From NCBI GenBank assembly GCA_963855995.1, contig OY979716.1, positions 45,102,213-45,166,212 on the forward strand: a stretch of DNA of 64,000 nt, read 5' to 3'. This stretch comes from Muricea muricata. Taxonomy: Eukaryota > Cnidaria > Anthozoa > Malacalcyonacea > Plexauridae. The translations under genes were made by a program, and so were the position numbers. This document shows positions 5,568 to 26,533 of this stretch, one piece after another. The first letter of the stretch is position 1; every line of letters starts with the position of its first letter. A model generated the notes under the pieces. It worked only from the letters and a program-made list of their open reading frames with translations, did no database searches and was not told the DNA's origin.

Positions 5568-6356
5568 GGTAATTTTAAACGAACTATCAAATATATACAA
5601 TAGAAGACCGTAGAGTCGCACACGAAGGCTCTATTCCAAATAGAGTCCTTCAAAACAAACGAGGAAATGACTCTAGGTCTCCACTAAACACAAATTTCGT
5701 TTATAACCTACCTACTATTAAAGGACTCTTACGCTGGCACGTACTCCAAGCGCAAGAACTGATCTTAATAGTGTCCTTTAATAGAATACAGCAAGGATCG
5801 AAACGATGACCCTTACTGCGACTACGAAGAGTACTTCAATCGTATGAAGCACTCCAAAGACGCGCTCAAAACCCGAAGTAAAAAGCGAGAAGTCCAAGAA
5901 CCCCGACAATGAAGCGTCAAAGATGCCTGAAAAAGATCACCCGGTGGCCTTTGAGTCTCCTCGACTCGACGGGCCCAACTACGGAAGATACTATTGACCA
6001 CTACCTAATACGTGTCCACAATACGCTATGGTGTATTAATTATGTATGGAGGTGCCCAGATAAGCCGGTACACCGGAAGACAAGGTAGGCTAACCCTACC
6101 GCCGATCTCCGAAGAGACCGACAAAGAAAAGAAGTATGGGAATTGCTGGCAGCCGTACCAACTGAGGCTAACCCTCAGCCTGACTGTCCCCAGCGGAAGT
6201 AAACTACTAGAAGTGTAAGACTGGAAATGTCCGCACCAAGCACCTAGGGGGCACGGCTAGTTGTGTTCCTTTTACCCGGAGTTAGGGTCACCAATACCCA
6301 GCATCGATAGTCCTCAGGTAAAAGGACGAAGGCACTAACGCGAGTGCAAGTGACTC
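5568..6356 (-). other. LINE copy 1 5' UTR with two stem structures
   Basis: Non-coding leader of copy 1. Two inverted repeats stand out. CCTTTTACC at 6,268-6,276 pairs with GGTAAAAGG at 6,317-6,325. CGCGAGT at 6,339-6,345 pairs with ACTCGCG at 6,353-6,359, forming a terminal hairpin with a 7-nt loop. Copies 2 and 3 have stems at the same places with changed but still paired bases, so the structures rather than the sequences seem to be kept. No ORF of note. Confidence 0.55.
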
Positions 6357-6474
6357 GCGTCAGGTAAGTATGAGTTGTTGAGCGCAGGCACTCACGTTTT
6401 ATTCAGCCAACAAGAATGGAAACGGACGTGGTTCTGCCAGCAGCACTCTAATTTGCATGTTTCTCCTTGGTCGG
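6357..6474 (-). promoter_or_regulatory. U1 snRNA 5' end and promoter (gene B)
   Basis: On the minus strand the first eleven U1 nucleotides AUACUUACCUG lie at 6,371-6,361, which places the start of transcription at 6,371. The LINE takes over after about 16-18 nt. Upstream (6,372-6,474) is a segment almost identical to 17,785-17,888. It contains the octamer ATGCAAAT (plus-strand ATTTGCAT at 6,451-6,458), about 80 bp before the start, typical of snRNA enhancer elements. The rest of this U1 gene lies left of the window. The upstream side is cut at 6,480 by LINE copy 2. Confidence 0.75.
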
Positions 6475-6767
6475 GTAAGTTTATACTTTTAAATTCGACA
6501 TTACCGTCCCGATTGAGGGATTGTGCAATGGCATGCCGAATTTCGGGGTGTGTACCCACACGCAAAACAACTGGGGAGTTGAGCCCCAACCCTGACTAAA
6601 TGCCTGTTAAGCACACATTTAGCGCTAATGGACACGACAACACTCTGACGAACAGGACAGAAAACAAGGCAGAAAACGACAAAACATATAACAAGAGATG
6701 AGAAACTTGCAAAAGAGACATACATAGCGCTATATAAACCCCGAAAATTAGATAAAAATAGTTTAAA

Positions 6768-6843
6768 AATGTATATATGTGTGTGTGTATACTTTATATA
6801 TGTTATATGTGTGTGTATACTATTTATATATATATATATATAC
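6768..6843. repeat. TG/TA microsatellite
   Basis: Alternating runs of TATA and TGTG dinucleotides ending in a pure TA stretch, inside the 3' UTR of LINE copy 2. Small ORFs crossing it are artefacts of the dinucleotide repeat. Confidence 0.9.
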
Positions 6844-7023
6844 ATGGACGGTGCACCATGGAAGAAGATTGCACCGGGATACCTCCAAGAAGGTTAAAAA
6901 GAAGAAAAAAGAGGGAAGAGAGACACTTAGAAGGAGAAGACCAAGTCCGGACCCTCCAAGTGCTTCAAAGAACCGCGGCCAAGCCACCCAAACGCGCGAA
7001 TTTGAGCAGGGCTCTTGCACCGC

Positions 7024-10000
7024 TTAAATAATAAATTTAATACGACGAATTGCTATGTGTAGGATATTCGAAGCGATGGGTACCTTCTGACGAAATCGGA
7101 AGTCGCACCGAGCAACCCAAATGGCATGTTTCATGACCATCAGCATGAAAAAAAAGATGGAAGGGATTGCCTGGCGACGCGCTTCCGAAAACCCGAAAAG
7201 CAGCTCATCAACCGTAAACCGACCAGCGGTTGGGTTGATACGGACTACGTTTGTGTACACCCAGGCCACCAAGAGGCGAGCTAGCTCGCATCTCGAAAAA
7301 GAGATGTTCAAGCGTCTCGTCGGCAGTCGCACAAAAACAACGACTGTTGACTCCACGCATTCTAAATTTGATGGCAAACGGGCACCGGTGTAAAGCACCC
7401 CATGTGCGATCTGCCAATTCAGATCGACCACCTTACGGTCCAGATCGACAATGTGCAACTGGCGCCACGTCTCGGGCCAGTGCAAGGGACCGTAGGTGGG
7501 ATGGAACTTTGCAATACAATAGAATTCCTTGTAATTGTGTGCCCGCAAAAGGGTGTACGTGTGTGTTGAGGTGAGCTGCGAGATGTTGGTTGGGTTGTCA
7601 GAAGATACCCAAATGCCCAGCTCGTCGCTACCCACTATCAAACCCCCATCCAGGGCCCGCCATACCCTGAAAAGGAGCTGATAAAACGTGGGCAGAGATC
7701 GTAAAAGGCGACGAGGCTGGGCTGTTAGAAGAGCGCTGCGTGGCTCTAAATTAAAAGTGGTTTGGAAAAAATAAACAAAAAAGGTCTTCCAACGCCCGTC
7801 GGAAGACACGAAAAAACGTTTGAGCCACTGCAGCGCAAATGCTTCGGCTTTCAAGCGAAAATTGGTTACCCCAAAGCCACCCTGAGCTTTGGGGAGAGTT
7901 TCTGTGGTCTGGGCCACTTGGTCACGTTTGCCAGACCAAAAGAAGGTCCAAACAGCCTTATCAATACATTTCCCCGCCCAAACAGGAATGGGGAAAACGT
8001 GACACAAGTGCCAAATCTGTGATAATGCAAGGGTGTTTGTGACAACTGCCTTCCCCTGAAAAGACAGTTGTCGCCCAGACCACGAGGCAAGCCGAGTCTC
8101 CAGACTGGAGACAACTGGCTCCCACGTTGGGGTGGTGTAATCACCAACGCTGAAGGTCGCACCGAGCAGTGGCAGCTGTTTTACCCACTGCAGCCCATAC
8201 TAGGTATCGGTACGATCCTTCCAGGAACCAGCCCACATAGCCTTCGACTTGCCTCTATTTAATTTGGCGCCAGAGGCCCTCTCGTAGGTCAAATAAATTG
8301 AGAAGGTCTCCTCTATTGACTGCTCTGTAGTGACGGCTACGATGGTGTCGTCTGCGTAGCCGGAGCACTTGTACCCCTCCACCGAATGGGGGATGGTTAT
8401 GCCCTGAATGTTCGGAGATGCACGAATGCACTCCGCAAGCACTTCGATGGAGAGGACGTACAATAGAGGAGACAGAGGGCACCCCTGGCGCACACCCCTA
8501 GAGGGGATAAAAAATGAGGACATCCAGCCATTGATGATAACTGCTGACTGGATGTCTGTATAGAAGAGACGGACCCAGTTGCAAAACTGTGGTCCAAAAT
8601 TAAACGTCTCGAGTATGCGGAGCAGGAAGCCCCAATCAACGCGATCAAATGCCTTCTCTTGATCGAGAGAGAGAATGGCAAGGGGAATATCTTCCCACTC
8701 CACATACTCTAACAAATGTCGCACTCCGGCAAGATTTCACTTATGGTCCTACCTCGAACCCCACAGGTCTGGTCTGGATCGATTATACTAGGCATGACAC
8801 CAAGAAGGCGCCCCGAAATAGTTCTCGTAGCGATCTTATAATCTACGTTAAGTAAACTAATGGGGCGCAAGTTCTTGGTGTCGAGAGGGTCATTCTTTTT
8901 GTACAACACAATAATCAGTCCCCGGCGCTGAGAGGTGGAAAGCTGGCTGGCCTCAAAAGCTGCATTGAGGACGCGGACCAGATCAGCACCAAGGGACTGC
9001 CAAAAGACTTTATAAAACTCCATAGGGAGACCGTCTGACTCAGGGGTCTTACCGTGAGGCATGCCCGAAAGGGCGGCCCAGCATTCGTCAACGGTAAGAC
9101 ACCCCTCACAACCAGCCCTCTCAGCCTGACTTAAGCGACGTGTCAGCTGAGAGAGCATGGTGTCTTGAGCTGAAACATCACCCACCTGTGCGATAAATAA
9201 GTTGTCGTAATACGCCCGCCAGACCCCTAAGATCTCAAATGGGTCGTGGCGGACCAGTCCAGTTGCAGGATCGCGTATCGAGTACATCGTCAGCCGGGCA
9301 TGATGTTTGGACTCCAGGTTCAAGGAAGTATGAGGAGGATTTCTCACCCTCCTCTGCCCACTGACATCGGGCACGAACCTGGGCCCCTTTTGCCTCGTAC
9401 AGAGCGATGTCTCTCAGCTCCTGCTGGACTGCGCACAGGCGTGTGAAGGCCGTTCGATCTCCCTGATCAAATGCCTCTTTAAGCGCATGCATTTCCTTGG
9501 TGAGAGAGGCCTTCCTGCTGCGTTTGTCGGCGGCTTTAGCACGCTCATAGGTTCGGGAGACCTCTCTCAAATAGAATTTGCCCTGGTCCCACCAGTCCAT
9601 CAGGGATGGAAAATCAGCGTGATTTTCCATGGACTGCCAGTGGGACCAGAACGATGTAATTAAATTGATGTACTCGGGGTCCTGGAGGAGCGAAGCATTC
9701 AGCTTCCACACCCCCGGCCCCGAGTCAAATTGTTGCTGTAGCGTGAAGACCACCAATAAATATTGGTGGTCTGAGAGAAAGGAGGGGTGATATTCACACC
9801 CTTTGATGTTCTTGCTTAAAGCTGTTGGAGCCCACACCATGTCGATCCGTGACGCCTGGGTTCCATCCCCATGCGTGCATGAATAGGCTATGCAACCTGG
9901 ATGTAATTGGCGCCACACGGGGTAGGTTTGCGTGAACGACATGAGGGACTCCAACGCTACTGTGCTCTCTCTTTGCTGGGCAGCAGGCCCAGCAACATAG

Positions 10001-10320
10001 TTTGGATGACGCATACGGTCTAATTGCGGATCCAAAACTGCATTAAAATCACCGGCCACAAAGGTTGGCCGGGATAGATGTGTTAAACCAGTTAAACTGG
10101 CAAAGAATGTGTTACGCGCCGGATTGCGATTCGACGCGTATAATAAAATAAAACTAGCCTGGCCTTCCTCGAAGTCCACAACGGCCTGAACGTAGCGGCC
10201 ATCTTCATCCTTGATAATTTTTGTGATTTTATATTTGTCTTTGACAAGGATGGGGACACCTGCACTCTTTGATGTTAATGAAGAGGAGGCGACGCGATAG
10301 CCGCTGTTAGCAAACCACCT
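7024..10320 (-). pseudogene. LINE copy 2 ORF2, broken
   Basis: Endonuclease-RT of copy 2 in at least four frame segments: 10,320-9,235 (endonuclease from about residue 47, then the linker), 9,374-8,709, 8,724-8,200 (RT with SLDQEKAFDR and YADD) and 8,007-7,024 (C-terminal domain). The endonuclease N-terminus is missing because of the deletion joining it to ORF1. It cannot encode a working protein. Confidence 0.85.
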
Positions 10321-10861
10321 TCCAGATCCTGGTCCCGCGGTAACGGAAGGACACCAAGAAGCCCCCGATGTTAATATTGGCAGGGATGGCTTTAGTTAAG
10401 ACCATGGACACCCTACGGGTGCCGGAGTGAACGGACTCGAAGCCCTTCACTTTTAGATGTTGTACTGAGATAACTCTCCCATAGGGCGCCAAGGTCTCAT
10501 ATAATATGTTATCCTGCATCTGTAGAGGGACCCGGTTGACAAAAATTGATTTGACATCCTCATAGGCAGGTAGGGGTTGCAAATGTATGCCCCGAAAAGA
10601 AATCCCGTTTATGTCGGCGGCGTGCCGATCAGAACTATAACGGAATTCTACTCTGTATTTATAGGGAGACAAGGCTTGCACAGCTGCAACCTTGCGCTCC
10701 CCAATTGCTTGAATTAATTCTTTTCTCAGCTGCGGGATTTTGCTGGTTCTTATTAGCTTAGAAGGAATCGTAACCACCGAAGTGGTCTGATTCCACCGTT
10801 GGAAGTCCGCAGCTGAGAAGGTTACTGCTTTCTGTGTGTTTATATTCTGGCTGGTAGCCAT
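10318..10861 (-). pseudogene. LINE copy 2 ORF1, N-terminal half only
   Basis: Starts at 10,861 (MATSQNINTQKAV). The RRM-like region matches copy 1 (FSAADFQRWNQTTSV, then SSDRHAADINGISFRG). The protein then stops short: after NIGGFLVSFRYRG the frame runs into endonuclease sequence and ends. The CCHC knuckle and acidic tail are deleted. 10,862-11,532 is the 5' UTR and carries the stem CAGTTGTG/CACAACTG (11,476-11,483 with 11,512-11,519). Confidence 0.8.
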
Positions 10862-11553
10862 GGTTAGTGTAAGTTAAAGAAAGGGAATTAAAATAGAAAT
10901 ATATACAAAAATCCAGTGCAACACACACTTTCTCTAATGAAAAATATATTAGAGAAATAAAACAAGAGAAAATAACTGGATATAAACAAATTCCCAACAA
11001 AAATAAAACTTAACTTAACTAACCTACTATTAAAAGGCCTCTGTGCAATTGAGTACAATTGTCCCACAGACTAACTAATCCGGCCTTTTAATAGACTACA
11101 GACGCGCTCAAAACCGGAACAAAAGATGGACCAAGAACCCAGCAATGAAAGCATCAAAGATACCAGAAAAAAAGATCCCCCTGACCCTTGAACCCCCTGG
11201 CTGGACAGGCCCAACCACGGAAAACCTAATAACCACTACCTATACACTTATGGAAATGTGCAAAAAATGTGAGGAGTTGCCCTGCTAGTCAGGGACAACG
11301 GAAGAACCAGTGAACTGGTTAAAACAAGAAAAAGACGGGGATTTGTTGCCAGTCGGACAAACTGAGGCTAACCCTCAGCCGGACTGAACAACAGAAGCAA
11401 ACTACGAGAAGGGAAGGAGTATGGCGTTGTCTACACCAAGCACAATGAAGGGGGTGTAGCTCGTTGATTCCGGCACAGTTGTGTTATGAGAACCAATCTC
11501 AAGCATCGATCCACAACTGCCCGGTCGAAGACACTGAACGCGAATCAAGTGAT

Positions 11554-11630
11554 TCGCGCCAGGAAGAATCCTTAATTCATTCCAGTTTACCCTTTTTATT
11601 CAACCAAGACCAAGCAATGGCAAGTGGTGC
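11554..11630. other. Short unexplained junction between LINE copy 2 and U1
   Basis: About 77 bp between the 5' hairpin of LINE copy 2 and the recognisable part of the U1 gene. The expected last 25 nt of U1 (stem-loop IV) are replaced by unrelated sequence. A deletion or rearrangement is likely. No target duplication for copy 2 is visible here. Confidence 0.4.
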
Positions 11631-11763
11631 GCAGAAATTCTACGCTCGAGTTACCCACATTAGGGGTAATCGCAGGAGTCAACCCAGTCTGTTAGTGCAA
11701 TGAAAGGGCCTCATCCTGAGAGGACCTCCTAGTTGATCAAGGTGCCTCTCCCGTCAGGTAAGT
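11631..11763 (-). ncRNA. U1 snRNA, body of gene A (nt 3 to about 137)
   Basis: Read on the minus strand it starts ACTTACCTGAC. It then has GATCAACTAGG (stem-loop I region), CATTGCAC (the U1A-binding type loop II), TCCTGCGATTACCCC, TGTGGGTAACTCGAG and the Sm-like AATTTCTGC, in the same order as vertebrate U1. It matches 23,079-23,241 almost base for base. The first two nucleotides are replaced by the LINE tail and the last stem-loop is missing, so this is a broken gene. The missing 5' end and promoter are at 17,774-17,900, across LINE copy 3 and the short element. Confidence 0.85.
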
Positions 11764-12177
11764 TTGTATTTCTAAAAACGACATGTCCGTCTCTACTGAG
11801 AGATCGTGCAATGGAATGTCGTATTTCAGGCACGCAAACTACCAGGGAGACGATCCCTGACCCCGACTAAATGTGGACACCGGCTATTTAGATTCCTTTC
11901 GGCAACGCGGCGCTGGCCCACATTTAGCGCTAACATTTAAGACAAAAGGACATATTGACGAACAAGGGACAGTCACAATCCTAACACATAGAGTAACGAA
12001 CGGACATATTGACAATTCTAAACATAAAATACGAACAGGACATATTGACAATCCTAAACATATACGGGAACCCCTACGGATTAACAATTAATTAATAATT
12101 ATCTAACTAATAATGATAAAATAATGGACGACGTGACACGCTAAGGTCACATCGGGAATTGATTAAAAGGACGACAC

Positions 12178-15100
12178 TTAGAAGGAGAAGACAAGCTCCT
12201 GGCCCTCCAAGTGCCCCAAAGAACCACGGGCAAGCCACTCTCGCTCAAACGCGCGTATTTGAGCAGGGCTCTTGCACCGTTTAAATAATAATGATAAAAT
12301 GAATTTTAATTTGGCTATAACCTTATTCAAAACTTCACTTATAATCGGCGTCTTCTGACGAAAGCGGAAGTCACAACGAGCAACCCAGATGGTATGTTTA
12401 ACAACCAACAGCATGTATATGATGATTGTTGGAATTGCTCGACAACGTGCCTCCGAAAACCCAAATAATAACTCCTCAACGGTAAACCGACCTGCGGTTG
12501 GATTGATTGTATAGAGATTGAAGTATACCCATGCAACCAGGATGCGAGCCAGCTCGCATTCGAAGAACAGGTGCTCGAGAGTCTCGTCGTCAGCACGACA
12601 GAAACAGAGACTCTCAATGTGGCGCATACCAAAGCTATGTGCATGACGAGCACCTGTGTATAGCACACCGTGTGCTATCTTCCAGTTTAAATCGATCACT
12701 TTACGGTCAAGATCGCAAATGTGCAACTGGCTCCAGGTTTGAGACCAGTGCAAGTGATCGTAAGTTGGCAGATATTTCTGGATGCAGTGCGGCTCTTTGT
12801 AATTACGAGACCGCAAAAGGGCATACACGTTCCGTGAGGAGATTTGGTCTAACGGTAGAGGAACATCAGAAGACACATTTACACTGAGCACATCGCCATT
12901 GGCTACGCCACCACCCAGGGTCCACCATACCCGATGGATGGTTTGGTAGAATGCAGGAAGGTGTTTAATCTGCTGGCGATACTGCTCAGATAATAACGCA
13001 TTGCGTGGCTGCATGTCAAAAGCGGACATGTAAAAGTAAATGAAAAATGCTTTCCATTTGCCCTCAGAAGGGGCAAAGAAGCGCTTCAGCCACTGCAATG
13101 CAAAGGAGTCAGACTTTTCTTTAAAGTTAATGACCCCAACCTGACTGTGGTTCGTGCCACAAGATCTCGTTTGCCCGACCAAAAGAAGTTCCAGACCGCC
13201 ATATTAATGCGTCTCCCGGCCCAACTTGGCACCGGAAAGACGTGGCATAGATGCCAAACCTGGGACAAAGCCAGGCTATTGATGACTACTGTCTTCCCTT
13301 GGAAAGACAGTTGACGGCCTGCCCAAGCAGAAAGTCGCGATTCCAAGCTATTCACTGCCGGTTCCCATGTTGGCGTGCTGTAATCGCCAACGCTGAAGGT
13401 CGCTCCGAGCAGTGGGAGTTGTCGAACCCACTGCAACTCATAAGGGTATTTGGGCGATCCTTCCACGAACCGGCCCGCATTCCTTTCGACTTTCCGCGAT
13501 TTAGTCGAGCACCTGAGGCACGTTCGAATTTGCTATCGACGTTGAACGTCTCCTCTATAGATGAATCGGTAGTCACGGCTACGGTCGTGTCGTCAGTGTA
13601 GCCGGAGCATTTGCATGGATCCACCGAGTGCGGGATGGTAACGCCGGTGATTTTAGGTGACTTTCGAATACACTCGGCGAGCACCTCGATGGAGAGCACA
13701 TACAAGAGAGGAGACAGAGGACACCCCTGTCGAACACCCCGTGAGGGGCGAAAGAAGGAAGATGTCCAGCCGTTGATGACTACGGCAGATTCAACGTCTG
13801 TATAAAATAGTTTGACCCAGTTCATAAAATCTGGGCCAAAATTAAATGTTTCAAGTATGCGATGCAGGAAACCCCAATCAACTCTATCAAATGCCTTCTC
13901 TTGGTCTAAAGAGAAGGGCTAGGGGGGGGTTTCCCGATCAACATACTCGAGGAGATCTCTGATGGTAAAAAGATTCTCGCTTATGGACCTGCCACGTACG
14001 CCACACGTTTGGTCAGGTCCAATAATGCTTCCCATCACACCAAGTAGTCGTCCAGATATAGCCCTAGTGGCGATCTTATAATCCAAATTTAAGAGAGTAA
14101 TCGGACGCCAATTCTTGGTGTCCAGTTTATCGTTCTTCTTGTAGAAAACGATAATCAAACCCCGGCACTGTGAGGTGGATAGTTGGCCGGCCTCAAAAGC
14201 AGCGTTAAGGACGCGGACCAAATCGGCGCCAAGGGTTTGCCACAATGTATGGTAGAATTCCATTGGGAAGTCATCCGAACCTGGGGTATTACCCTTAGGC
14301 ATACCCTTGAGAGCTTCAAAACACTCCTCAAGGGTAAGGTTGCCTTCGCAGCCAGCTCTCTCGGCCGTACTCAGACGACGATGGAGTTGAGAGAGCATTT
14401 CGTCTTGCGCAACAGGATCGCATTCCTGTGCCGTAAACAGGTTCGAATAATACGAGCGCCACACACCCAGGATCTCAAAAGGGTCGTGGCGTACAAGTCC
14501 AGTCTCTGGATCGCGTATAGAGTGCATCGTCTGTTGGGCTTTGTGGTGGGTTTCCAAATTAAGGAAGAAGGAAGACGAAGTCTCTCCTTCTTCGGCCCAT
14601 TGGCACCGAGCGCGCACCTGTGCCCTTCGTGCCTCGTGTAGAGCGATGCCTCGCAATTCCTGCTGGACTTCGCATAATTTGCCAAATGCAGTTCGATCCC
14701 CCCGGTCGAACGATCTTTTTAACTGATGCATTTGGCGTGTGAGAGAGGTTTTCTTGCTGCGTTGGTCGGCAGCTTTCGAACGAGAATACGAACGAGTAAC
14801 CTCTCTCAAATAAAATTTACCCTGGTCCCACCAGTCCATAAGCAAGGCAAAATCCTCGTGATGTTCTAGGGACTGCCAATGGGACCAGAAAGAGCTCACC
14901 AGGCTGACGTACTCGGGATCTTTCAGGAGGGATGTATTGAATTTCCACACTCCTGGGCCCGAGTCTATCTTTGGCATCAGATGGAATTTGACCAAAAGAT
15001 ATTGATGATCTGTGAGGAATTACAGATGGTATTCGCATTCCTCAATCGAGTCAGCCATAGCTGTTGGAGCCCACACCATGTCGATTCGTGACGCACGATC

Positions 15101-15697
15101 ACCCGATCCGTGCGTCCACGATTACGCTATGCGTCCTGGATGTAGATGACGCCATAGCGCGTATGTTTGTGTGTAAGACATGAGCAACTCCAATGCAGCG
15201 ACACTCTCACGCCTGTGCGCAAAGCGATTAGGTTCGTGAGAGGGATCTCTCATTCTATCCACTTCTGGATGGAGAACGGAGTTAAAATCGCCCCCGATAA
15301 AGACGGGGCGCGATAGATCAATTAAGTCTGTCAGTGATGTAAAATAACGATTTCGCTCCGGGTTGGTGTTCGGAGCGTATAGCGAGACAAAACTTAATTG
15401 ATTCTCCCCAAAATCAACAAAAACTTGTATGAAGCGGCCATGATCGTCCTTTATGATCCTGGAGATCTTCCAGGTATCTTTTACTAGTATGGCGATGCCT
15501 GCACTCTTTGATGTAAAGGAAGAGGAGGCGACGCGATAGCCGCTATTTGCGAACCACTTCCTGGCAGATTCCTGTGAAGGGGTGTGCGTCTCTTGTAGAC
15601 ACACGACATCAGCCTTCATGCATTTTAACCAGTCTACCAGTGCAGTTCGCTTGGTATGATCGTTTAATCCGTTAATGTTGACTGAAATCAAATTCAT
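12178..15697 (-). pseudogene. LINE copy 3 ORF2, broken
   Basis: Starts at 15,697 with MNLISVNINGLND and can be followed to 12,178. Two nonsense changes (near 15,120 and 15,018), a frameshift near 13,915 just before the DQEKAFD motif, another near 13,440 and a small deletion near 13,140 break it. RT signatures GVRQGCPLSPLLYVL (about 13,700-13,745) and the YADD region (mutated to YTDD near 13,600) are visible. The C-terminal knuckle FFECELARILVAW lies near 12,560. Confidence 0.9.
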
Positions 15698-16984
15698 CGT
15701 TTGATTCCAGTGTTAGGGGTAAAAACTCCGGTGAGAGAGGGAGCTCAGGACTGGACAGCTCTGTGAGGAGTGCCCGGTTAATGTCGTCGATGGTGGTGGG
15801 CTCGGTTGTTGATTCAATATCCGAGACAGGTGCGCCACTCACCAAACGATCGAACAACCCCTGCGAAGAAGCAGGGGAAGGAAAAAAATTAGTTGACGAG
15901 GCAACTGAGCCTGGCGGTGACTCTTCCCCGTCAACTGAGGGTCTGTAAAAGACCGGTGTATTTATAATCGCAGGAGAGGAGATCGGCGTCATCTGCCCCC
16001 CTGGCGGCGATATTGGGACCACTACGGGGTCAAAAATTAATGAGGGATCGGGACTGTTGTCATTGGGTTCCACGATCCCTATCTCGACTCCAATTAGGGG
16101 AGGGGTACCTCGTAGATCAGACGTGACCTCCGAGGCCCAAGACACCTCCCCTTCCTCTCCTATTTCGATGAGGATTTCTTCCTCCTCTTGCACTAGTGCC
16201 CCTGTGGGCGTTGCCATGGGGTCAGGCGTGACCTCTGGCTGTGGCTGTGCAACATCTAATGTTGTCACGGCTGGCGCTTCGGTTGGGATGGTCAGTGTCC
16301 CATCCAATGGGACTAATGGCACATCCTCAGCTAGTTGTTGTTGATATGGAAGTGCTACATCTAATGTAGCACTTGGCGCCTCTAATGCGGGCGATGGCGT
16401 TTGCCCGAAGGAAGAAATTGGCGTTGTTTGCCAATACTCGATAGCTAAGGGGTCGATAACTGATGACCTCGAGAGACAATTATCAAGTTCCTCATCGCTT
16501 GAGGAGTCGAGACGGCATCGCTTGTTCTTACACAACACAGCGAGGGAAATGTCGTCCCTATCTATTTCTGCCTGTGTTGCAGTGACCTTTGCTCTACCCC
16601 CCGTCGGCTTTGTCCACGTCGATGTTGTGATCGTGGAGCTCGATCGAGAGATTGATGTTAAAGTGGCTGGTGTTTTTGCCTGAGAAAGGCCACTTCGAAG
16701 CCTACGAACCCGTAGCGTAGTTATTTTTCGCACAGCAGTGCGAACTGGGCCAGATTTCGCAGCAGCCTGTTGTTCGGCCTCGATGATACTGGCCGCAAAA
16801 TCTGCCTCTGTGATTTCCTCTGACTCGCTAGCCGATGTTATGGGCATATTAAATTGCGATCTTAGTTGTTGTATTTGCTGAGTCAGAGGTGTTGAAGTCG
16901 AGTGAGACTGAACTCTCAATGGACTGTCAGCCTCACTATTTAACTGGATGGCTTTGGTGGCACCATCCAGTTTGGTCTTCGGAA
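15672..16984 (-). pseudogene. LINE copy 3 ORF1, C-terminal part only
   Basis: Only the acidic, low-complexity C-terminal half remains, in one open frame from about 16,984 to 15,672, with LDGATKAIQ near the left end and SNDEFDFSQH at the end. The RRM and CCHC regions are deleted: the sequence jumps from ORF1 to 5' UTR near 16,984. The stop overlaps the ORF2 start. Confidence 0.8.
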
Positions 16985-17465
16985 GATAAGAAGTCCAAGA
17001 ACCCCGACAATGAAGCGTCAAAGAAGCCTGAAAAAGATCATCCGGTGGCCTTTGAGTCTCCTCGACTCAACGAGCCCAACCACGGAAGATACTAATAACC
17101 ACTACCTAATACGTGTATTTACACTATGGTGTAGAGAAATGCAGGGAGGTGCCCAGTTAAGCCGGTACACCAGAAGACAAGGTAGGCTAACCCTGCCGCC
17201 GATCGCCGAAGAGACCGACAAAGAAAAGAAATATGGGATTTGCTGGCAGTCATACCAACTGAGGCTAACCCTCAGCCCAACTGTCCCCAGCGGAAGAAAA
17301 CTATGAGAAGTGTAAAGAGGGAAATGTCCGTACCAAGCACCAAGGGGGCACGGCTAGTAGAAACCTTATACCCGGAGTTAGGGCGACCACTACGCAGCAT
17401 CGAATATCTTCAGGTATAAGGATGAAAAACCCAACGCGAGTGCAAGTGACTCGCGCCAGGTAAGT

Positions 17466-17773
17466 TTGTATTGCAAGTCCTGCTCCCGACACCAAGAGGG
17501 TCGTGCAATGGTCGCAGGGTGAAATGCAACTTGGAAGGCCCCCGTTCGCGACCGCTCTTTTCCGAAGAAAAGCCTCGCTACAGGTAACGCACCTCCCAAC
17601 AGCGCGAAACTAGTAGGCCGTAAAGCACTACCAGCTAATGTCTCCAAAAGGAGGACAAAAAATACAACCTGCTGGGCGTACCATACAGGAGGAAAAAACT
17701 GCTGGGCGAACCATACAGCAAAAAGGTGCCTGCTGGGCTAACCATACAGACGAAAAACTTAACCTAAACGCGC
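17466..17773 (-). mobile_element. Short non-autonomous element at the U1 site, copy 1
   Basis: About 308 bp lying between two copies of the U1 5' sequence (ACTTACCTGGCGCG at 17,465-17,452 and 17,782-17,769). It has no coding capacity. Near its 5' end (17,690-17,750) are three diverged repeats of CTGCTGGGC(N2)ACCATACAG. The last 60 bp resemble the LINE 3' UTR, with CCATTGCACGA and an AATACAA tail. This is what a SINE-like element mobilised by the U1 LINE would look like. It could also be an internally deleted LINE. Confidence 0.7.
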
Positions 17774-17900
17774 CAGGTAAGTATGAGTTTGTTGAGTGCA
17801 GGCACTCACGTTTTATTCAGCCAACAAGAATGGAATTGGACGTGGTTCTGCCAGCAGCACTCTAATTTGCATGTTTCTCCTTGGTCGGGTAAGTGTGAGC
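17774..17900 (-). promoter_or_regulatory. U1 snRNA 5' end and promoter (gene A)
   Basis: Minus-strand start at 17,784 with AUACUUACCUGG, then the short element. Upstream is the octamer ATGCAAAT (plus-strand ATTTGCAT, 17,865-17,872) and a run TGAATAAAACGTG nearer the start. At 17,885-17,894 there is a U1-like ACTTACCCGA. It is intact here but carries LINE copy 2 in the sister promoter at 6,471-6,480. The body of this gene is at 11,631-11,763. Confidence 0.75.
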
Positions 17901-18426
17901 ATTGCTTGTCGTTCTCGCTTGCTGTAAAAAGAATAAGAGAAAAATATGTTAGAAGTGAGTCTCATTCACAATCAATGTTTGCAAATGACTAAATTACTAA
18001 GCTAGAGTAGTCTCTGACTCTAGAGTCTGTCCAAATTCTTCATTACTCATTTCTTTATAATAGAGTTTCTTTCTCGTTAAAATCATACGAGCTATTTCAT
18101 TCTTAATGCTTTTATGCACGCTCTATCATGAAGTATTGCTGTCTACAGTGAGATCGCTAAGCCTTATGGGAAAGCAATGGAAAATTTCAGCGGCACCCAT
18201 AGCCCCCTTCCAAATGAAAACAAAAATATATATACACGCTATACGATATACGCTATACTATATACTATACAAGACATACATATGAATAAAGATCTATAAT
18301 AAAGAGATCAGTACTTCTTTTTCTAAGTGCGTCGTAGTATCTCTTCTCAGTTTTGCAGCTCATTTCACATAGTTCATCATTTGTCATTTTCGGCTATTTC
18401 ATATTTCAAATTGTTGGTAAATGGTG
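17901..18426. other. snRNA gene spacer
   Basis: AT-rich single-copy-looking sequence between the U1 promoter and the 3' end of U2, with short TATAC repeats around 18,225-18,280. No ORF, tRNA or other feature that I can support. It probably holds the distal part of the U1 promoter and the U2 3' processing signal. Confidence 0.5.
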
Positions 18427-18602
18427 GTGGGCTGTTCTCGGTGGTAGTGCAATGACCGAGACAACCCGTGGCCAGGGCGAAGCAAGCTTCAGTAAGATAA
18501 GTCCCATGGCCGAGCTCCAAAAATCAGTTTAATATATGAGTTAGGCATTGCCTAACATATCAGATATTAAGCTGATAAGAACAGATACTACACTTGATCT
18601 TA
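18427..18602 (-). ncRNA. U2 snRNA body (nt 22 to 3' end)
   Basis: Read from 18,602 leftwards it begins TAAGATCAAGTGTAGTATC, which includes GTAGTA, the branch-point recognition sequence. Then come TATCAG...CTGATA, the Sm site ATTTTTGG (about 18,515-18,525) and 3' stem-loops ending near CCCACC. The order and key motifs match U2 of other animals. The first 21 nt are missing here because a LINE is inserted; they are found at 22,638-22,663. Confidence 0.9.
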
Positions 18603-21600
18603 TTTTGGATGAAACGACGAGGGACTTATCGACTCCGACGGTGCAATAAAGCCTGGACCCCGTGATAGCGCCGTACCCAGGGGGGGCGCTACTTAGCGAC
18701 GCAGACCTTCAGGGGGTATGATCCCCTCCCTCGTGCCATGATAACAACCGTGAATGGCCCGAGCGATTGGACCAGAAGGGCCCGCCTGCCCGGGGGTCCC
18801 TAACCTATGATGGTGGATGGCAAGGACAGATGGAACTGACGATTGTGGCGTCAACATGAACAGCACCCTTGGGAAAAACATAGATCAATAAACATTTAAA
18901 TCTGCCGCGACCGCCGCAGTGCAAAACTGCGGCGACCCGGCAGTCAAAAATTGATGAAACCCCGGTGGAAACGGTAGTACAACCAATTAAGGCGACCCCC
19001 GCATCACCAAGGCTAAAAACTCAGCTACAAACACATGCTGAGATGGGACGTTACAATCGAAAAATGAACTGCTGCCAAAACGAACAGATACTATGCTTCG
19101 GAGTGCATGCAATATTTGAAGGCCACTTTAAGTAAAAATACATTAATAACAAACATACCTGACAAGGTGACAATGGACGGCACGGGACAAATGCCCAGCA
19201 TGCACCAGCAGTGACAACCACCTAAGGCGACCCCTGGGCATACTAAGCGGATGGGACGTCACAACAAAAAGGCTGGAGATTGAAGGACCAGCAGCGGCAT
19301 ACGCGGAAGCGCTGTAAGCAAGAACCTAACTGAAACACGCTGAGAGAGAGGAGAGCCCGGGTAGACCACTCCCCTCCCCGAGGATGAGGTAGCAAACCTC
19401 AAGTACGGCAAGGTGCGCGGGGTGGGGGGACGAATCTTCTTCCCCCACCCCCCGTTTAAATCCTAAAGGAGAAAAAAGGCCTAAGAAAGCCCCCCCTAGC
19501 GGCGAGGCGTTGCTCATGAGACATCCCCCCTCAGGAATGCTACATAATTAGAATGCGAAGCAGCAGGCCTATTGCCAGACCACTGAGCCAATTATCCATA
19601 ATTAAACCGACCCTAGATGGGATGGAGTGCACTCATCTGGGACAAGGGCATCAAGCCGAGACAACAAAGGTACCAGCACTCCTCCAGCGAGCCACTCGTC
19701 CTCATAAAAGGAGGTGAGAGTGATTCGCTGTTGGACTCTCGAGACAAAACGGAACGATCTTCTCGACCAAGGCCTGAGGATCTGGACGAAGTCCCTCAAA
19801 TTGCCACGCATTTCGTGCGACCCAAATTTAATGGTGCAGGGTTGCCAGCAGAAATTTAAATCCGGCGGAAGACGGAAAACCGAACCGAACGTGTGCGTTC
19901 AAAAGGCGATGCTGTGGCCGTGACTGAGCCAGCAACCCCTCGAACCAGCGAACCGCGTGTAGTAGTAGGGGACACTGTTCGAATAGATGCGTTTGTGTTT
20001 CCAAATTGCCGCAGTGGCATGTGGGCTGGTGGATCGCTATGCCCCACCGTTGGAGGCGGTCAGTTGTGGGTAAGATCCCGTGGGCCAGCAAAAAGTTGGT
20101 TTTCCAAATTGGTTTGTCAATGAAATAAATATCAAGATCGTTCCAAATAGAGCGCCAGTCAATATTATAGCCCTTGAATGTGTTGACACAACGAAGTATA
20201 GAATACCCTCGAAACTGGAGGTAAGCACGGTGGGCAGAAAGATCTTCCAGTGGAATTTGGTAGTGGCGGTTGCAGCAAACCATCCAATCGGTTTCAACCC
20301 GAGTTATTGTCCCTAGTCGGAGCCTCGTGTCTAGGACTTGTTGGTAAAAGGGTGGGAGTCGTCGCATAGTGGATGGGCCCACATTGGTTAAGCTAAATAC
20401 ACGTTCAACTGGTTCGGAAAGAAAAACGCGGCGAAGCAAATGCCGAAAAAAGCATTTCCAAGGATGTTCGTGACCGACAAGGAAGCGCTTAATCCACATC
20501 ACCCAGAGTGATGCCAGCCTCGAAGCAATATCAATAGCACCCAGCCCTCCACGGGAGGGGGGTAAAGAGGCCGAAGACCGACTGAGCCACTCCCTCTTGT
20601 AGTCCCATATGAATGAATAGACTGATCCGCTTATCCTATGGGCTAGGTGAGAGTCCACAGGCACCGTGGAACCCAAGTACCAGAATCGACTAACACCCAG
20701 CTTGCATGCAACTAACGCGCGCCCCCGATATGATAATCTGCGGTGTTGCCAGGAAACGAAAACACAGTCTAGTGCTTTGAGCGCAGGCTCCCAGTCTTGA
20801 GAACCATCCGGAGAGATTCTCGCCCCCAGGAGCTCGATGTAACTAGACGTCCATTTTAAATCCACCGGGAGCAAAGTACGAGTCCGCCAGGGGCCGAGCA
20901 AGAGACCGCAGCACTTGGCTTGGTTCAAGCGCGCCTCACTGGCTCGCCCGTACTTCGCGAACAGGCCAAACAGCGCATGTAGAGAAGCATCGCTACACAC
21001 AAAGCTTGATGTATCATCAGCTTACTGCGAGAGCTTCATTACGTTGTTCCCCCCCGGAAGAGGGAAGCCGTGGATCTTTGGATCAGCTCGAACCGCACAT
21101 GCCAATGATTCCATCGCCAGAACGTACAACAAAGGCGAGAGTGGACAACCTTGGCGCACTCCCCTGGTCACCGGAAAAGGCTCCGTGACGAAGCCATTCA
21201 CGACGACAGCGGAGTGCACGTCGGTATAGAGCAACCTAATCCATGCCCTAAAGGACGGGCCAAATCACATGCGTTCTAAAACTTTCATCAAGAATGAGAT
21301 TTCCACTCTGTCTAAAGCCTTCTCCTGATCTAAGGAGACAATCGCTCCTCCTATGTTGTTTTGGTCCGCGTAACATGCTACGTCCAAAAGAAACCTAACG
21401 TTTTCTGCAGGGGACCGACCTGGGATACCACAGGACTGGTCGGGTGAAACCATCGAGGCAATCACCTGCAGAAGACGGTTCCCTAGGGCCTTAGCGGCGA
21501 TCTTGTAGTCCACACACAAAAGAGTGATGGACCTCCAATTCGCCAGATCAAGGCAATCTTCCTTCTTATATAAAAGAGTGATTGCCCCGTTTCTTTGGGA

Positions 21601-22637
21601 TTGGCAAAGTCGACGGTGGTGAAAACATGAGTTGTATACTTCTACTAAATCTGGGCCCAACGTGTCCCAGAAGCGCCGAAAAAATTCGGCTGGGAAACCG
21701 TCTACCCCGGGTGTTTTAGCTGATGGCATGTTCGAAAGGGCTTTCGAACATTCCTCAATGGTGAGGTCCCCCTCACACAACCTAGATTCGGCTGGGGTGA
21801 GTCTACGTTCGATGGAGTCGAGAAAGAGCCCTTGGTCACCATCAGACAATTCCTGCGACGAGAACAAACGAAAATAGAACTCACTCCAGACATTCATAAC
21901 GTCAGTTTTGCTCGTGACCACAGTCCCATCACTCCGCCGAATGGCATTGATCAGTTTCTGCTGGCCTCGAACTCTTTCCTTCCTGAGGAAATATGCCGTT
22001 GACCTCTCCCCTTCAACAGCCTCCCGGACCTGCGCTCGTAACTTAGCACCCTGAGCTTGGTGAGATAAGAACTTTCAGAGCCCATCTGGCTCTCCAAGTC
22101 ATCTAAGATCCCCGCTAAAGTTGGGGCCGGTGTAAGGGCCATGGCGGGTATGGTACATAGTACCGCCCTCTTATGCTCATAAATGGGCATTGTAACACAA
22201 TAATTAGTAAATTTGTAAACGTACCGGAGTTGGCCCCAATTTGGGACGAACCAACTCAATAAAGTCCAATTCACGCTCACACGAACACACCAATAAAGTA
22301 AACACGAAAGTCCAAGTCAACACACACGAGCACCAAATATATACAGGACAATTCGAGCCAACGAACACGAACACAAGCTGGACCACGGACAGGCCAAAGG
22401 AACCAGCGGCAGGCCAAAGGAACCAACGGCCAGCGGCAGCACCAAGGTCAGGAGCAGGACCAGGGCCAGCCAACAGCAGCGGAAGACACCAGGACCACTG
22501 GATGGTTCTTGAAACGTGCTGGAACGGTTCTTCACAAGACTCTTCAGCTGCATGTTCTTCTTACTGAATCTTCTTAACAGGATTCTTCTTTCTTCTCTCT
22601 TGAGTTTCTATAACAATCACCAAAGGATTAGATATAT
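18603..22637 (-). mobile_element. U2-targeted Tx1-like LINE
   Basis: A second LINE family, unrelated at sequence level to the U1 LINEs. Its 3' end (CATCCAAAA on the minus strand) joins U2 nt 22 and its 5' end follows U2 nt 26, so TAAGA is duplicated. The 3' UTR (18,603-19,601) is about 1 kb and contains two diverged copies of a unit with AAGGCGACCCC and GATGGGACGT (18,990-19,070; 19,205-19,275). ORF1 and the endonuclease are absent; 22,140-22,637 looks like leader sequence, so there is an internal deletion. From memory, known U2-specific Tx1-clade LINEs (Keno, Dre) are the nearest parallel. Confidence 0.8.
19602..22140 (-). pseudogene. U2-targeted LINE ORF2: RT domain, broken
   Basis: Pieces 22,140-21,951, 21,921-21,265, 21,234-21,022, 21,000-19,828 and 19,811-19,602 follow one another. 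RT motifs: SLDQEKALDR near 21,320 and GVRQGCPLSPLLYVL near 21,150. The Tyr codon of the catalytic YADD is TAA (21,022-21,024). The C-terminal Cys/His knuckle (CHCGN...H...C) is near 20,000-19,960. It ends with an EDEWLAGG stretch similar to the REWLARG end of the U1 LINE. No endonuclease sequence remains. Dead copy. Confidence 0.85.
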
Positions 22638-22663
22638 TCTTAGCCAAAATGCTGAGAAGCGAT
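22638..22663 (-). ncRNA. U2 snRNA 5' end (nt 1-26)
   Basis: On the minus strand ATCGCTTCTCAGCATTTTGG followed by CTAAGA, the 5' stem-loop of U2, with the transcription start at 22,663. Sequence then switches to the LINE. Together with 18,427-18,602 it forms one interrupted U2 gene. Confidence 0.85.
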
Positions 22664-22890: not shown

Positions 22891-23078
22891 CACCCACCCA
22901 CCCACTCACTTACTTCATTAAAAGAGTACGGAGCAAAGGCAGACAGTGCGAGACAGACACATAGTACTGTATACAGTAGTGTCACGCGATCCAAGATTCT
23001 ATAATAGTCTCTGCTGTCTCGATGTGTCTACCCTGGCGACTATCTAAAATAAGCTATTATGATTAAGGTCAGATAGAA
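22891..23078. other. Spacer between U2 promoter and U1 3' end
   Basis: No gene seen. Contains the short palindrome ACTGTATACAGT near 22,966-22,977. U1 3' processing signals should lie here, but I cannot assign them. Confidence 0.4.
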
Positions 23079-23241
23079 GGGGACGAGCGCGAACGCAGGT
23101 CCCCACTAGCAGAAATTCTTCGCTCGAGTTACCCACATTAGGGGTAATCGCAGGAGTCAACCCAGTCTGTTAGTGCAATGAAAGGGCCTCATCCTGAGAG
23201 GACCTCCTAGTTGATCAAGGTGCCTCTCGCGTCAGGTAAGT
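23079..23241 (-). ncRNA. U1 snRNA, gene C (nt 3 to 3' end)
   Basis: The best-kept U1 in the window. Reading from 23,241: ACTTACCTGACGCGAG, GATCAAC, CATTGCAC, CCTGCGATTACCCC, TGTGGGTAACTCGAG, AATTTCTGC (Sm region). It finishes with a strong stem-loop GGGGAC...GCGTTCGCGC...GTCCCC, the classic 3' UUCG-type loop. Only the first two nucleotides are lost, to the inserted short element. The promoter is not in the window and seems to have been lost in rearrangement beyond 53,857. Confidence 0.9.
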
Positions 23242-23530
23242 TTGTATTGCAAGTCCTGCTCCCGACACCAAGAGAGTCGTGCAGTGGTCGCAGGGTGAAA
23301 TGCAACTTGGAAGGCCCTCGTTTGCGAAACCGCACTTTTCCGTAAAGAAAAGCTCATAAAGCGCGAAACTAGTAGGCCGTGAAGCACTACTAGCTAAAGT
23401 CTCCAAAAGGAGAACAAAAAATACAACCTGCTGGGCGTACCATACAGGAGGAAAAAACTGCTGGGCGAACCATACAGTATAAGGTGCCTGCTGGGCTAAC
23501 CATACAGACGAAAAACTTAACCTAAACGCG
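23242..23530 (-). mobile_element. Short non-autonomous element at the U1 site, copy 2
   Basis: Second copy of the element at 17,466-17,773, about 289 bp, again flanked by ACTTACCTGACGCG on both sides (23,241-23,228 and 23,540-23,527). The three CTGCTGGGC repeats are at about 23,428-23,510. Small indels separate the two copies, so they are independent insertions or old. The motif equivalent to CCATTGCAC reads CCACTGCAC here. Confidence 0.75.
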
Positions 23531-23540
23531 TCAGGTAAGT

Positions 23541-26533
23541 TTGTATTTGTAAAAACGACATGTCCGTCTCTACTGAGAGATCGTGCAATGGAATGTCGTA
23601 TTTCAGGGTGTGCACCGGCACGTAAATTACCAGGGAGACGATCCCTGACCCCGACTAAATGTGGACACCGGCTATTTAGTTTCCTTTCGGCGACCCGGCG
23701 CTGGCCCACATTTAGCGCTAACATAAAGGACAAATGGACATATTGACGAACAATGTACAATCACAGTCCTAACACATAGAAGAACGAACAGACATATTAA
23801 CAATTCTAAACATAAAATACGAACGGGACATATTGACAATCCTAAACATATACGGGAACCCCTACTGATTAACAATTAATTAGAATAATGATCTAACTAA
23901 TAATGATAAATTAATGGACGATGTGACACGCTAAGGTCACATCGGGAAATTAATAAAAGGACGACACTTAGAAGGAGAAGACAAGCTCCTCGGCCTCCAA
24001 GTGCCCCAAAGAACCACGGGCAAGCCACTCTCGCTCGAACGCGCGTATTTGAGCAGGGCTCTTGCACCGTTTAAATAATAACGATAAAATGAATTTTAAT
24101 TTAACTACAACTTTATTTAAACATTCACTTATGATCGGCGTCTTCTGACAAAATCGGAAGTCACAACGAGCAACCCAGATGGTATGTTTGACAACCAAAA
24201 GCATGTAAATAATGATTGTTGGAATTGCTCGACGACGTGACTCCGAAAACCCAAATAATAGCTCCTCAACGGTTAACCGACCTGCGGTTGGATTGATTGT
24301 ATTTAAGTTAAAGTATACCCATGCAACCAGGATGCGAGCCAGCTCGCATTCGAAGAACAGGTGCTCGAGAGTCTTGTCATCAGCTCGACAAAAGCAGAGA
24401 CTCTCTATATGGCGCATGCCAAAGCTATGCGCGAGACAAGCACCTGTGTAAAGCACACCGTGTGCTATCTGCCAGTTAAGATCGATCACTTTATGGTCAA
24501 GATCGCAAATATGCAACTGGCTCCAGGTTTGAGACCAGTGCAACTGACAGTAAATTGGCAGATATTTCTGGATGCAGTGTGGCTTTTTGCTGTTACGAGA
24601 CCGCAAAAGGGCATACGTATTCCGTGAGGAGATTTGGTCTAATGGTAATGGGACAAGACGCATTTAGACTGAGCACATCGCCATTGGCTACGCCACCACC
24701 CAGGGTCCGCCATACCCGATGGATGGTTTGGTAGAAGGCAGGAAGATGTTTAATCTGCTGGCGATACTGCTCAGATAAGAGTGCATTGCGTGGCTGCATG
24801 TCTAAAGCGGACATGTAAAAAGGCTTTCCATTTGCCCTCAGACGGGGCAAAGAAGCGCTTCAGCCACTGCAATGCGAACGAGTCAGCCTTTTCTTTGAAG
24901 TTTATGACCCCAAAGCCACCTTGGCCTTTGGGGAGGCTGATCGTGGTTCGTGCCACAAGATCTCGTTTGCCCGACCAAAAGAAATTCCAGACCGCCATGT
25001 TAATGCGTCTCCCGGTCCAGCTTGGCACCGGAAAGACGTGGCATAAATGCCAAACCTGGGACAAAGCCAGGCTATTGATGACTACTGTCTTCCCTTGGAA
25101 AGACAGTTGACGGCCTGCCCAAGCAGAAAGTCGCGATTCCAAGCTAGTCACTGCCGGTTCCCACGTTGGCGTGCTGTAGTCGCCAACGCTGAAGGTCGCT
25201 CCGAGCAGTGGGAGTTGTCGAACCCACTGCAACCCATAAGGGGTATCTTGGCGATCCTTCCACGAACCGGCCCACGTTCCTTTCGACTTTCCGCGATTTA
25301 GTCGAGCACCTGAGGCACGTTCGAATTTACTATAGACGTTGAACGTCTCCTCTATAGATTGATCGGTAGTCACGGCTACGGTCGTGTCGTCAGCGTAGCC
25401 GGAGCATTTGCATGGGTCCACCGAGTGCGGGATGGTAACGCCGGTGATTCTTGGTGACTTACGAATACACTCGGCGAGGACCTCGATGGAGAGCACATAC
25501 AAGAGAGGAGACAGAGGACATCCCTGCCGAACACCCCGCGAGGGGCGAAAGAAAGATGTCCAGCCGTTGATGACTACGGCAGATTCAGCGTCTGTATAGA
25601 ATAATTTGACCCAGTTCATAAAATCTGGGCCAAAGTTAAATGTTTCGAGTATGCGATGCAGGAAAACCCAATCGACTCGATCAAATGCCTTCTCTTGGTC
25701 TAAAGAGAAGGGCTAGGGGGAGGGGGTTTTCCCCGATCAACATACTCGAGGAGATCTCTGATGGTAAAAAGATTCTCGCTTATGGACCTGCCACGTACGC
25801 CACACGTTTGGTCAGGTCCGATAATGCTTCCCATGACACCAAGTAGTCGTCCAGATATAGCCCTAGTGGCGATCTTATAATCCACGTTCAAGAGACTAAT
25901 CGGACGCCAATTCTTGGTGTCCAGTTTATCGTTCTTCTTGTAAAGAACAATGATCAAACCCCTGCGCTGTGAGGTGGATAGTTGGCCGGCCTCAAAAGCA
26001 GCGTTAAGGACGCGGACCAAATCGGCGCCAAGGGTTTGCCACAATGTATGGTAGAATTCCATTGGGAAGCCATCCGAACCTGGGGTTTTACCCTTAGGCA
26101 TACCCTTGAGAGCTTAAAAACACTCTTCAAGAGTAAGGTTGCCTTCGCAGCCAGCTCTCTCGGCCGCACTGAGACGACGATGGAGTTGAGAGAGCATTTC
26201 GTCTTGCGCAACAGGATCGCAATCCTTTGCCGTAAACAGGTTCGAATAATACGAGCGCCACACACCCAGGATCTCAAATGGGTCGTGGCGTATGAGTCCA
26301 GTCTCTGGATCGCGTATAGAGTGCATTGTTTGTTGGGCTTTGTGATGGGTTTCCAAATTAAGGAAGAAGGAAGATGAAGTCTCTCCTTCTTTGGCCCATT
26401 GGCACCGAGCGCGCACCTGTGCCCCTCATGCCTCGTGTAGAGCGATGCCTCGCAATTCCTGCTGGACTTCACATAGTTTGCCAAATGCAGTTCGATCCCC
26501 CTGGTCGAACGATCTTTTCAATTGATGCATTTG
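23541..26533 (-). mobile_element. U1-targeted LINE, copy 4, 3' half
   Basis: 3' UTR (23,541-23,967) with the ATACAA tail against the U1-type site, then ORF2 up to the Polinton insertion at 26,533. The other half resumes at 51,151. CATTTG at 26,528-26,533 is the left target duplication of the Polinton. Confidence 0.9.
23968..26533 (-). pseudogene. LINE copy 4 ORF2, RT and C-terminal part
   Basis: Segments 26,533-26,420, 26,416-26,114, 26,101-25,700, 25,619-24,771 and 24,850-23,968 carry the linker, the RT (YKKNDKLDTKNWRPISLL; GVRQGCPLSPLLYVL; YADDTT near 25,395) and the C-terminal region ending QELVFSF-like at 23,968. Frameshifts occur near 26,120, 25,715, 24,820 and 24,655. The frame continues across the Polinton into 51,157-52,117. 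Confidence 0.9.

Follow-up and report, generated by a model that had tools for sequence, protein, structure and literature searches.

U1 gene pieces and LINE copies in the window

We analysed a stretch of 64,000 nucleotides of the Muricea muricata genome (contig OY979716.1, here called C1, positions 45,102,213-45,166,212; hereafter the window), in which long interspersed nuclear elements (LINEs) are joined to genes of the U1 small nuclear RNA (snRNA). The COX1 gene on contig C74 of this genome has 99% identity to a sequence cluster containing Coelogorgia palmosa, followed by four clusters with other octocoral names (Ellisellidae, Protoptilum, Cornularia and Leptophyton; 92-96%); octocoral COX1 evolves slowly, so that the match indicates an octocoral rather than a particular genus. 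All features of this U1 group lie on the minus strand. They comprise four LINE copies, which we call A to D (copies 1 to 4 of a preliminary description made from the sequence of the window), two U1 genes or gene pieces and two short non-autonomous elements; one U2 gene, joined to a different LINE, is also present. Read along the minus strand from the right, the order is LINE D, target, short element 2 and U1 body; the U2-joined LINE and U2; U1 promoter, target, short element 1, target, LINE C and U1 body; LINE B; and finally U1 promoter, target and LINE A. Here the target is U1 nucleotides (nt) 3-16, the nt-3 lineage is joined to U1 at nt 3, and the promoter lineage is joined to the U1 promoter. 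The features are as follows.

1-6355, minus strand: LINE copy A, nt-3 lineage, 92.4% identical to nt 1-6350 of the LINE at locus L061 (see below); 5' end at 6355
6356-6369, minus strand: target copy (U1 nt 3-16), 5' junction of copy A
6370-6480, minus strand: U1 promoter with octamer ATGCAAAT; its upstream end carries the U1-like ACTTACCC, 111 bp before U1 nt 3
6481-11554, minus strand: LINE copy B, promoter lineage; 3' end joined to promoter ACTTACCC
11555-11630, minus strand: 5' flank of copy B, degenerate and resembling a U1 promoter, with CTTCCTGGCGCG as its end; loci L169 and L170 have similar flanks
11631-11763, minus strand: U1 body from nt 3, without the 3' stem (gene A)
11764-17451, minus strand: LINE copy C, internally deleted, flanked by two target copies
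17452-17465, minus strand: target copy (U1 nt 3-16), CTGGCGCG variant
17466-17768, minus strand: short non-autonomous element 1, 87.6% identical to short element 2
17769-17902, minus strand: U1 promoter and U1 nt 1-16 (gene A)
18422-18601, minus strand: U2 gene from about nt 23 (Rfam, 137.5 bits for 18618-18422; junction read)
18602-22300, minus strand: other LINE (reverse transcriptase, zf-RVT) joined to U2 near nt 23; upper limit approximate
23078-23241, minus strand: U1 body from nt 3 onward, with full 3' end (Rfam)
23242-23526, minus strand: short non-autonomous element 2
23527-23540, minus strand: target copy (U1 nt 3-16) between short element 2 and LINE copy D
23541-26533, minus strand: LINE copy D, 3' part, 90.1% identical to nt 4291-7288 of the L061 LINE
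51151-53855, minus strand: LINE copy D, 5' part past a Polinton-like insertion, 85.5% identical to nt 1613-4296 of the L061 LINE

Rfam scored the full U1 at 23243-23078 with 135 bits and the U1 without its 3' stem at 11765-11629 with 96 bits. The target ACTTACCTGRCGCG occurs six times in the window with at most two mismatches (6356, 11750, 17452, 17769, 23228 and 23527), against a mean of 0.53 in shuffled sequence, and a count of six was reached in none of 100 shuffles. Gene A is split, with its promoter and U1 start at 17902-17769 and its body at 11763-11631. The preliminary description had recognized this split and the duplicated target, both of which stand, but had read them as a single insertion; the gene is interrupted by two, a short element of 303 bp (17768-17466) and LINE copy C (17451-11764), and the target is present three times across it.

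Copies 1, 3 and 4 had all been placed at U1 nt 3. This holds for copies C and D, the latter being followed on its 3' side by U1 nt 3-16, then the short element and then the U1 body. Copy D is cut in two by a Polinton-like element of 24.6 kb, and its 5' end was not found. Copy A shows only its 5' junction there, after U1 nt 16, its 3' end lying beyond the window; a target at C1:45101233, known from the genome listing with the stretch itself unread, is less than about 30 bp from the 3' end predicted by the LINE length. Copy B belongs to a sister lineage aimed at the promoter, with its 3' end at the U1-like ACTTACCC (6480), 111 bp before U1 nt 3.

Among the 50 genome matches listed for the short elements, all those above 120 bits lie on C1, weaker ones lie on C1, C2, C3 and C12, and none lies on contig C16, home of most uninterrupted U1 starts. 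An origin of the short element from a known RNA was considered and rejected, Rfam having matched just its U1 flanks and one chance model, all weakly. At the 5' junctions of the LINEs, the CGCG of the target and the LINE 5' end form an inverted repeat, CGCGAGT..ACTCGCG (window 6340-6360 and 11540-11560), which is altered in step to CGCGAAT..ATTCGCG in some copies.

Junctions with U1 nucleotide 3 across the genome

We searched the genome (453,007,491 bases in 74 contigs) with 200 bases of the LINE 3' end, scored the best 40 of 92 candidates and read all 40 flanks. LINE 3' ends ran into U1 nt 3, with an exact or mutated target, in 37 of the 40, as had been claimed for the family. The other three were L099, in a U1 promoter, L098, a truncated chimera with the short element, and L071, off target. 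Beyond the 37 joins came the U1 body (14), the 5' end of another LINE (15) or the short element (8), which indicates that copies stack at the regenerated target. At one and the same base, LINEs and short element occur in several successions, and at least four LINE 3'-end types share the one U1 site.

The 14-base target has 193 exact matches in the genome and its reversed control none (100 places listed). The U1 family is multicopy, as the preliminary description supposed: 72 uninterrupted U1 starts remain, 71 on C16 and one on C1. With a U1 query whose position 1 is the element-derived AA, 16 of the best 40 of 119 candidates match from position 1 and 24 from nt 3 on; 30 of these loci were read, 16 being joined to an element and 14 carrying a U1 promoter. 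One further locus, L105 (C1:48074300-48074800), has a U1 fragment after TACTTACCT in surroundings unlike a U1 gene.

Searching with the reverse transcriptase (RT), of which the best 150 of 4,095 candidates were scored, revealed 90 copies of at least 72% identity. U1/U2 gene regions hold 87 of them, 27 at C16:6.1-6.5 Mb, 52 at C1:44.4-45.9 Mb and eight in four small C1 clusters, and these regions make up about 0.48% of the genome. Reading the joins cluster by cluster, rather than for each RT copy, showed U1 or U2 in every small C1 cluster. Two further matches have 61-62% identity and 58 have 43-55%, 39 of these 58 lying elsewhere; the gap in identity, with 90 copies at 72% or more and the rest at 62% or less, sets the U1 group apart as distinct. 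LINE RT copies clustered separately at C1:35.02-35.50 Mb have about 52-53% identity to the U1 LINE. The counts for 3' ends and for RT copies both speak against the possibility, raised in the preliminary description, that most copies lie outside U1-like sequence.

A few ancient U1 insertions could also have been multiplied by unequal crossing-over and gene conversion, the targeting itself being weak or extinct. The homogeneous repeat unit, the near-identical RT copies on C16 and chains with a spacing of about 7.3 kb are what such a process would leave. It does not account for the several orders of LINEs and short element at the same base, or for four or more 3'-end types at one site. Interrupted and uninterrupted units adjoin, moreover, clusters are found apart from each other on C1 and C16, and 44 of the 90 close RT copies keep open frames of at least 1,000 amino acids (counted from the listing). 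We consider array multiplication in place of targeting quite unlikely, although copy number may owe much to array duplication.

An insertion with its empty site

At L061, on C16, a 7,288-bp LINE with two open reading frames (ORFs) lies inside a U1 gene. The empty paralogous U1 gene that the preliminary description proposed to look for exists: the uninterrupted unit L020 is identical to the L061 flanks over 243 of 243 bases upstream (to the end of the target) and 270 of 270 downstream, with no masked bases in the compared stretches. The target duplication is 14 bp and, since LINE and U1 both continue with AG, may be up to 16 bp. In this nt-3 lineage the LINEs stand in sense orientation, with the 3' end at U1 nt 2/3 and the 5' end after U1 nt 16.

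The alternative that the U1 pieces are part of the LINE, a captured U1 start and body whose association with the element is hitchhiking, draws some support from window copy B, L169 and L170, which carry an element-like degenerate stretch ending CTTCCTGGCGCG. Against it stand the L061 flanks, both identical to the uninterrupted unit, and the presence of promoter-lineage copies in several distinct promoter variants (see below). In addition, two off-target copies on contig C10, L103 and L163, have no U1 after their 3' ends, which shows that the LINE does not bring the U1 piece with it. An origin of the U1 pieces within the LINE consensus, which had been named as a doubt at the outset, is therefore highly improbable.

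ORF1 of the L061 LINE encodes 877 amino acids and ORF2 1,181 amino acids with endonuclease (EN) and RT, matching PF03372 (Exo_endo_phos, the N-terminal EN) and PF00078 (RT). A CCHC zinc knuckle in ORF1 passes the Pfam cut-off in window copy A and narrowly misses it in L061. The best PDB match of EN and RT is L1 ORF2p (E 5.7e-79); the EN aligns with L1-type EN along its whole length, with conservation of the positions that we take to be catalytic. A relative of the LINE protein occurs in the octocoral Paramuricea clavata (58% identity over 79% of the query). Judged by their sequence, the U1 LINEs are L1-group elements with a predicted apurinic-type endonuclease. Their membership of the Tx1 clade, a label taken from the preliminary description, serves as a lead only; many Tx1 members are target-specific, according to PMC4640811, and target-specific insertion is found in the U1 LINEs. 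An R2-like 5' ribozyme was considered and dropped, Rfam at E up to 5 having given two weak microRNA models alone in L061.

Together, the joins at one base, the regenerated target and the empty site make it very likely, in our judgement, that these are LINE families of the L1 type (with an apurinic endonuclease) whose retrotransposition is specific for U1 genes. Several observations weigh against this. Three close RT copies stand outside the U1/U2 regions (C10:7.86 Mb, C10:5.44 Mb and C1:66.70 Mb); the 3' end of the last (L164) was searched for and not found, and L103 lacks the first 59 LINE bases. The 3' flanks of L103 and L163 both begin ACT, which equals U1 nt 3-5 and leaves the LINE end uncertain by up to three bases. 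Only the best candidates were scored (40 of 92; 40 of 61 in the promoter-lineage search below; 150 of 4,095), so that weaker non-U1 copies may be missed, and the array boundaries behind the 87 of 90 were drawn after the matches were known. Finally, Rfam detected no 5' ribozyme in the L061 stretch.

A sister lineage in the U1 promoter

Searching with the 3' end of copy B gave 41 matches (best 40 of 61 candidates scored), 24 of which belong to the promoter lineage by position and match, most of the others being an nt-3 family. All 21 flanks read of the 24 listed start in a U1 promoter; these are 19 distinct fetched flanks, window copy B and L104, whose flank is ACTTACCG. Among the 19 fetched flanks, all in U1 promoters, 17 have the exact octamer ATGCAAAT and 16 begin ACTTACCC, the exceptions being L147 (ACTTAGCC), L148 (ACTTACTG) and L149, which has no motif. 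The distance from the 3' end to U1 nt 3, measured in nine flanks, is 106-129 bp.

Five promoter-lineage copies were read at both ends, and their 5' ends join U1 nt 16. The segment present on both sides is the whole promoter plus U1 nt 1-16 (120-142 bp), with an agreement between the two sides of 120/120, 123/124, 123/124, 122/124 and 141/142. The 5' ends of two further copies, L171 and L172, were looked for and not found. Downstream of copy C1:45688617 lies a complete-looking promoter and U1, the sole uninterrupted U1 start found on C1.

The position of the promoter insertions is explained by an exact 13-bp repeat, ACTCATACTTACC, that occurs at the promoter site and at the U1 start, 124 bp apart; even a 10-mer repeat arises in just 27 of 2,000 shuffles. 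The two sites have the 12-mer CTCATACTTACC in common. The RT tree groups the promoter lineage with nt-3 family 1 as its sister (99/95) and leaves nt-3 family 2 outside this pair, which suggests that nt 3 is more likely the older target.

Such a long promoter duplication need not reflect a wide stagger of the cuts: an element inserted at nt 3 in the ordinary way might have gained it later, when U1 genes recombined with each other. The 13-bp repeat at both sites could assist such an exchange, and four of the five flank pairs do not distinguish loci. Against recombination, the LINE ends within the promoter in each of the 19 fetched flanks, with the same ACTTACCC at this point in 16, and no promoter-lineage copy among those read ends at nt 3. 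Copy C1:44574929, the 120/120 pair, has a locus-specific promoter variant on both sides, matching the other eight 3' flanks at no more than 109 of 126 positions, and intergenic sequence upstream; the pair is locus-specific and hence decisive. We regard recombination as an unlikely source of the duplication.

The remaining pairs count less in favour of insertion directly into the promoter. Three of the five fall in one near-uniform promoter class (121-124 of 124 mutually), within which two 5' flanks fit another copy's 3' flank one base better, and the segment of the fifth pair is common to a neighbouring copy, which leaves the 120/120 pair as the only locus-specific one. All five pairs were set by a spacing of about 7.2 kb and by a promoter-type RT (81-84% to L061) between the ends. 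No clean duplication is seen in window copy B (flank at 11555-11630), L169 or L170, whose 5' flank is a degenerate, promoter-like stretch ending CTTCCTGGCGCG that is perhaps element-borne.

Targeting could also work by tethering to a factor at U1 genes, such as the snRNA promoter complex or the Cajal body, and not by DNA sequence. This would fit the motif-poor flanks of L147, L148 and L149, which still lie within U1 promoters, and the rarity of off-target copies among those scored. Sequence recognition, by comparison, explains the base-exact insertion and the presence of CTCATACTTACC at both sites, and the poor motifs may be decay after insertion. We give tethering a small but appreciable chance.

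Proposed mechanism of insertion

The LINE 3' end varies little and lacks a poly(A) tail. It contains a hairpin that is kept among 3'-end types via paired changes (ACGACAT/ATGTCGT, ATGGCC/GGCCAT and TCGGCAT/ATGTCGA), although families 2 and 4 break one or two of its seven pairs. Both lineages regenerate the target and form tandem stacks.

Insertion would begin with the endonuclease nicking the antisense strand at CTCAT/ACTTACC. The resulting ...GGTAAGT-3'OH would prime reverse transcription of the 3'-hairpin RNA, as in target-primed reverse transcription, and the sense strand would be cut near nt 16, at the same place in both lineages. In the promoter lineage, a shift of the first nick alone, onto the other copy of the U1-start motif, would have spared the downstream U1. 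Copies stand in sense, 16 nt after a U1 start or another element, and the U1 promoter should therefore drive the first copy; the LINE would be transcribed from the U1 promoter 16 nt upstream. Hijacking of a U1 protein through ATTGCAC, which occurs in the 3' ends and which we take to be the U1A-binding heptamer of U1 stem-loop 2, was considered and rejected: the motif, found in the U2-joined LINE too, is not invariant (ACTGCAC and ATTGCAT occur).

The preliminary description had further supposed that insertion removes a core function of the cell. As predicted from the junctions, this would apply to nt-3 insertions, which break the U1 gene, and need not apply to insertions in the promoter. There is perhaps an even chance that the promoter lineage drives itself from one promoter copy and leaves an intact promoter and U1 gene behind the other. 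In that case its RNA, headed by a U1 leader, would also help to place the 5' junction. The promoter lineage would then be a natural experiment in how a site-specific element becomes harmless to its target. The two sister lineages share a single gene, each at its own copy of one motif. U1 recognizes 5' splice sites through nt 3-11 (complement CAGGTAAGT), and it is exactly there that the LINE is joined.

The U1-U2 repeat unit and related elements

U1 and U2 genes are carried together in a repeat unit of 1,634 bp in L020 and L014, with spacings of 1,638 bp and about 1,667 bp also listed; U2 was found by Rfam in four of the five loci scanned. The window's U2-joined LINE has 27 genome matches (27 of 27 candidates scored). 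Its 3' flanks (n = 20, L111-L130) match U2 from nt 23 for at least 14 bases in 12 cases (L128 with one change) and for 8-12 bases in four; in the remaining four the match covers 5-6 bases (AAGAT or AAGATC), too few for a decision. This places the join close to U2 nt 23, or a few bases beyond it at most, and not at the nt-39 site described in PMC4640811. In the C16 array, L062:997-6169 is a single-ORF element (1,233 amino acids) with an R2-like RT, placed between U2 nt 36 and nt 39, where U2 resumes; from these features it is probably Utopia. L111, L116, L120 and L127 contain elements starting GGAGCTCCGTTGAAAGG after about U2 nt 38, another U2-site family.

We found no U1-targeted LINE among the papers listed in our literature searches, Repbase and most subscription papers being outside the search. 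The known case of U1 targeting is that of the Dada DNA transposons, and the promoter-duplicating lineage is the most unusual part of the present system. The closest systems compare as follows. Keno is an animal LINE with an apurinic-type endonuclease in a spliceosomal snRNA gene, like the U1 LINEs, but is flanked at its 3' end by the U2 site that Utopia also uses (PMC4640811), whereas here it is U1 nt 3 or the U1 promoter. Utopia, inserted at U2 nt 39 in Phytophthora, shares with the U1 LINEs an snRNA-gene target and tandem, co-resident families, and differs in its restriction-like endonuclease and in targeting U2 (PMC4640811). Dada-U1 in zebrafish resembles them in U1-gene specificity and tandem insertions; it is a DDE DNA transposon that uses a different place in U1, GCGAAT/C, and is proposed to duplicate 6 bp (PMC3706591), in contrast to RT and EN with a duplication of 14-16 bp.

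U1 would thus be added to the RNA-gene targets of LINEs. In R1 and R2, several LINE lineages occupy one tandem repeat unit of an essential RNA gene, that of ribosomal DNA (rDNA). The U1 group likewise places multiple LINE lineages in one unit, here the U1-U2 unit of about 1.6 kb in place of rDNA. With sites of at least four LINE lineages, this unit is an snRNA counterpart of rDNA with R1/R2, and would allow tests of copy-number control, concerted evolution and target switching outside rDNA. The rotifer element R9 reportedly makes an exceptionally long target duplication of 126 bp; the promoter lineage is similar in the length of its duplication and differs in that the duplicated segment is promoter and gene start, not rDNA.

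Polinton-like elements in the window

The 24.6-kb Polinton/Maverick-like element inside LINE copy D (26533-51151) has terminal inverted repeats of about 298 bp (96%) and a 6-bp overlap of LINE sequence at both ends. Its ORFs include DNA polymerase B2, an A32-like ATPase and a collagen-repeat protein. Within it, inverted repeats at 43843-44100 and 50551-50818 (93-98%), about 6.5 kb apart, are perhaps those of a nested DNA transposon. The stretch 57760-62831 is about 66-76% identical to 28351-33937 and is probably a related Polinton-like element.

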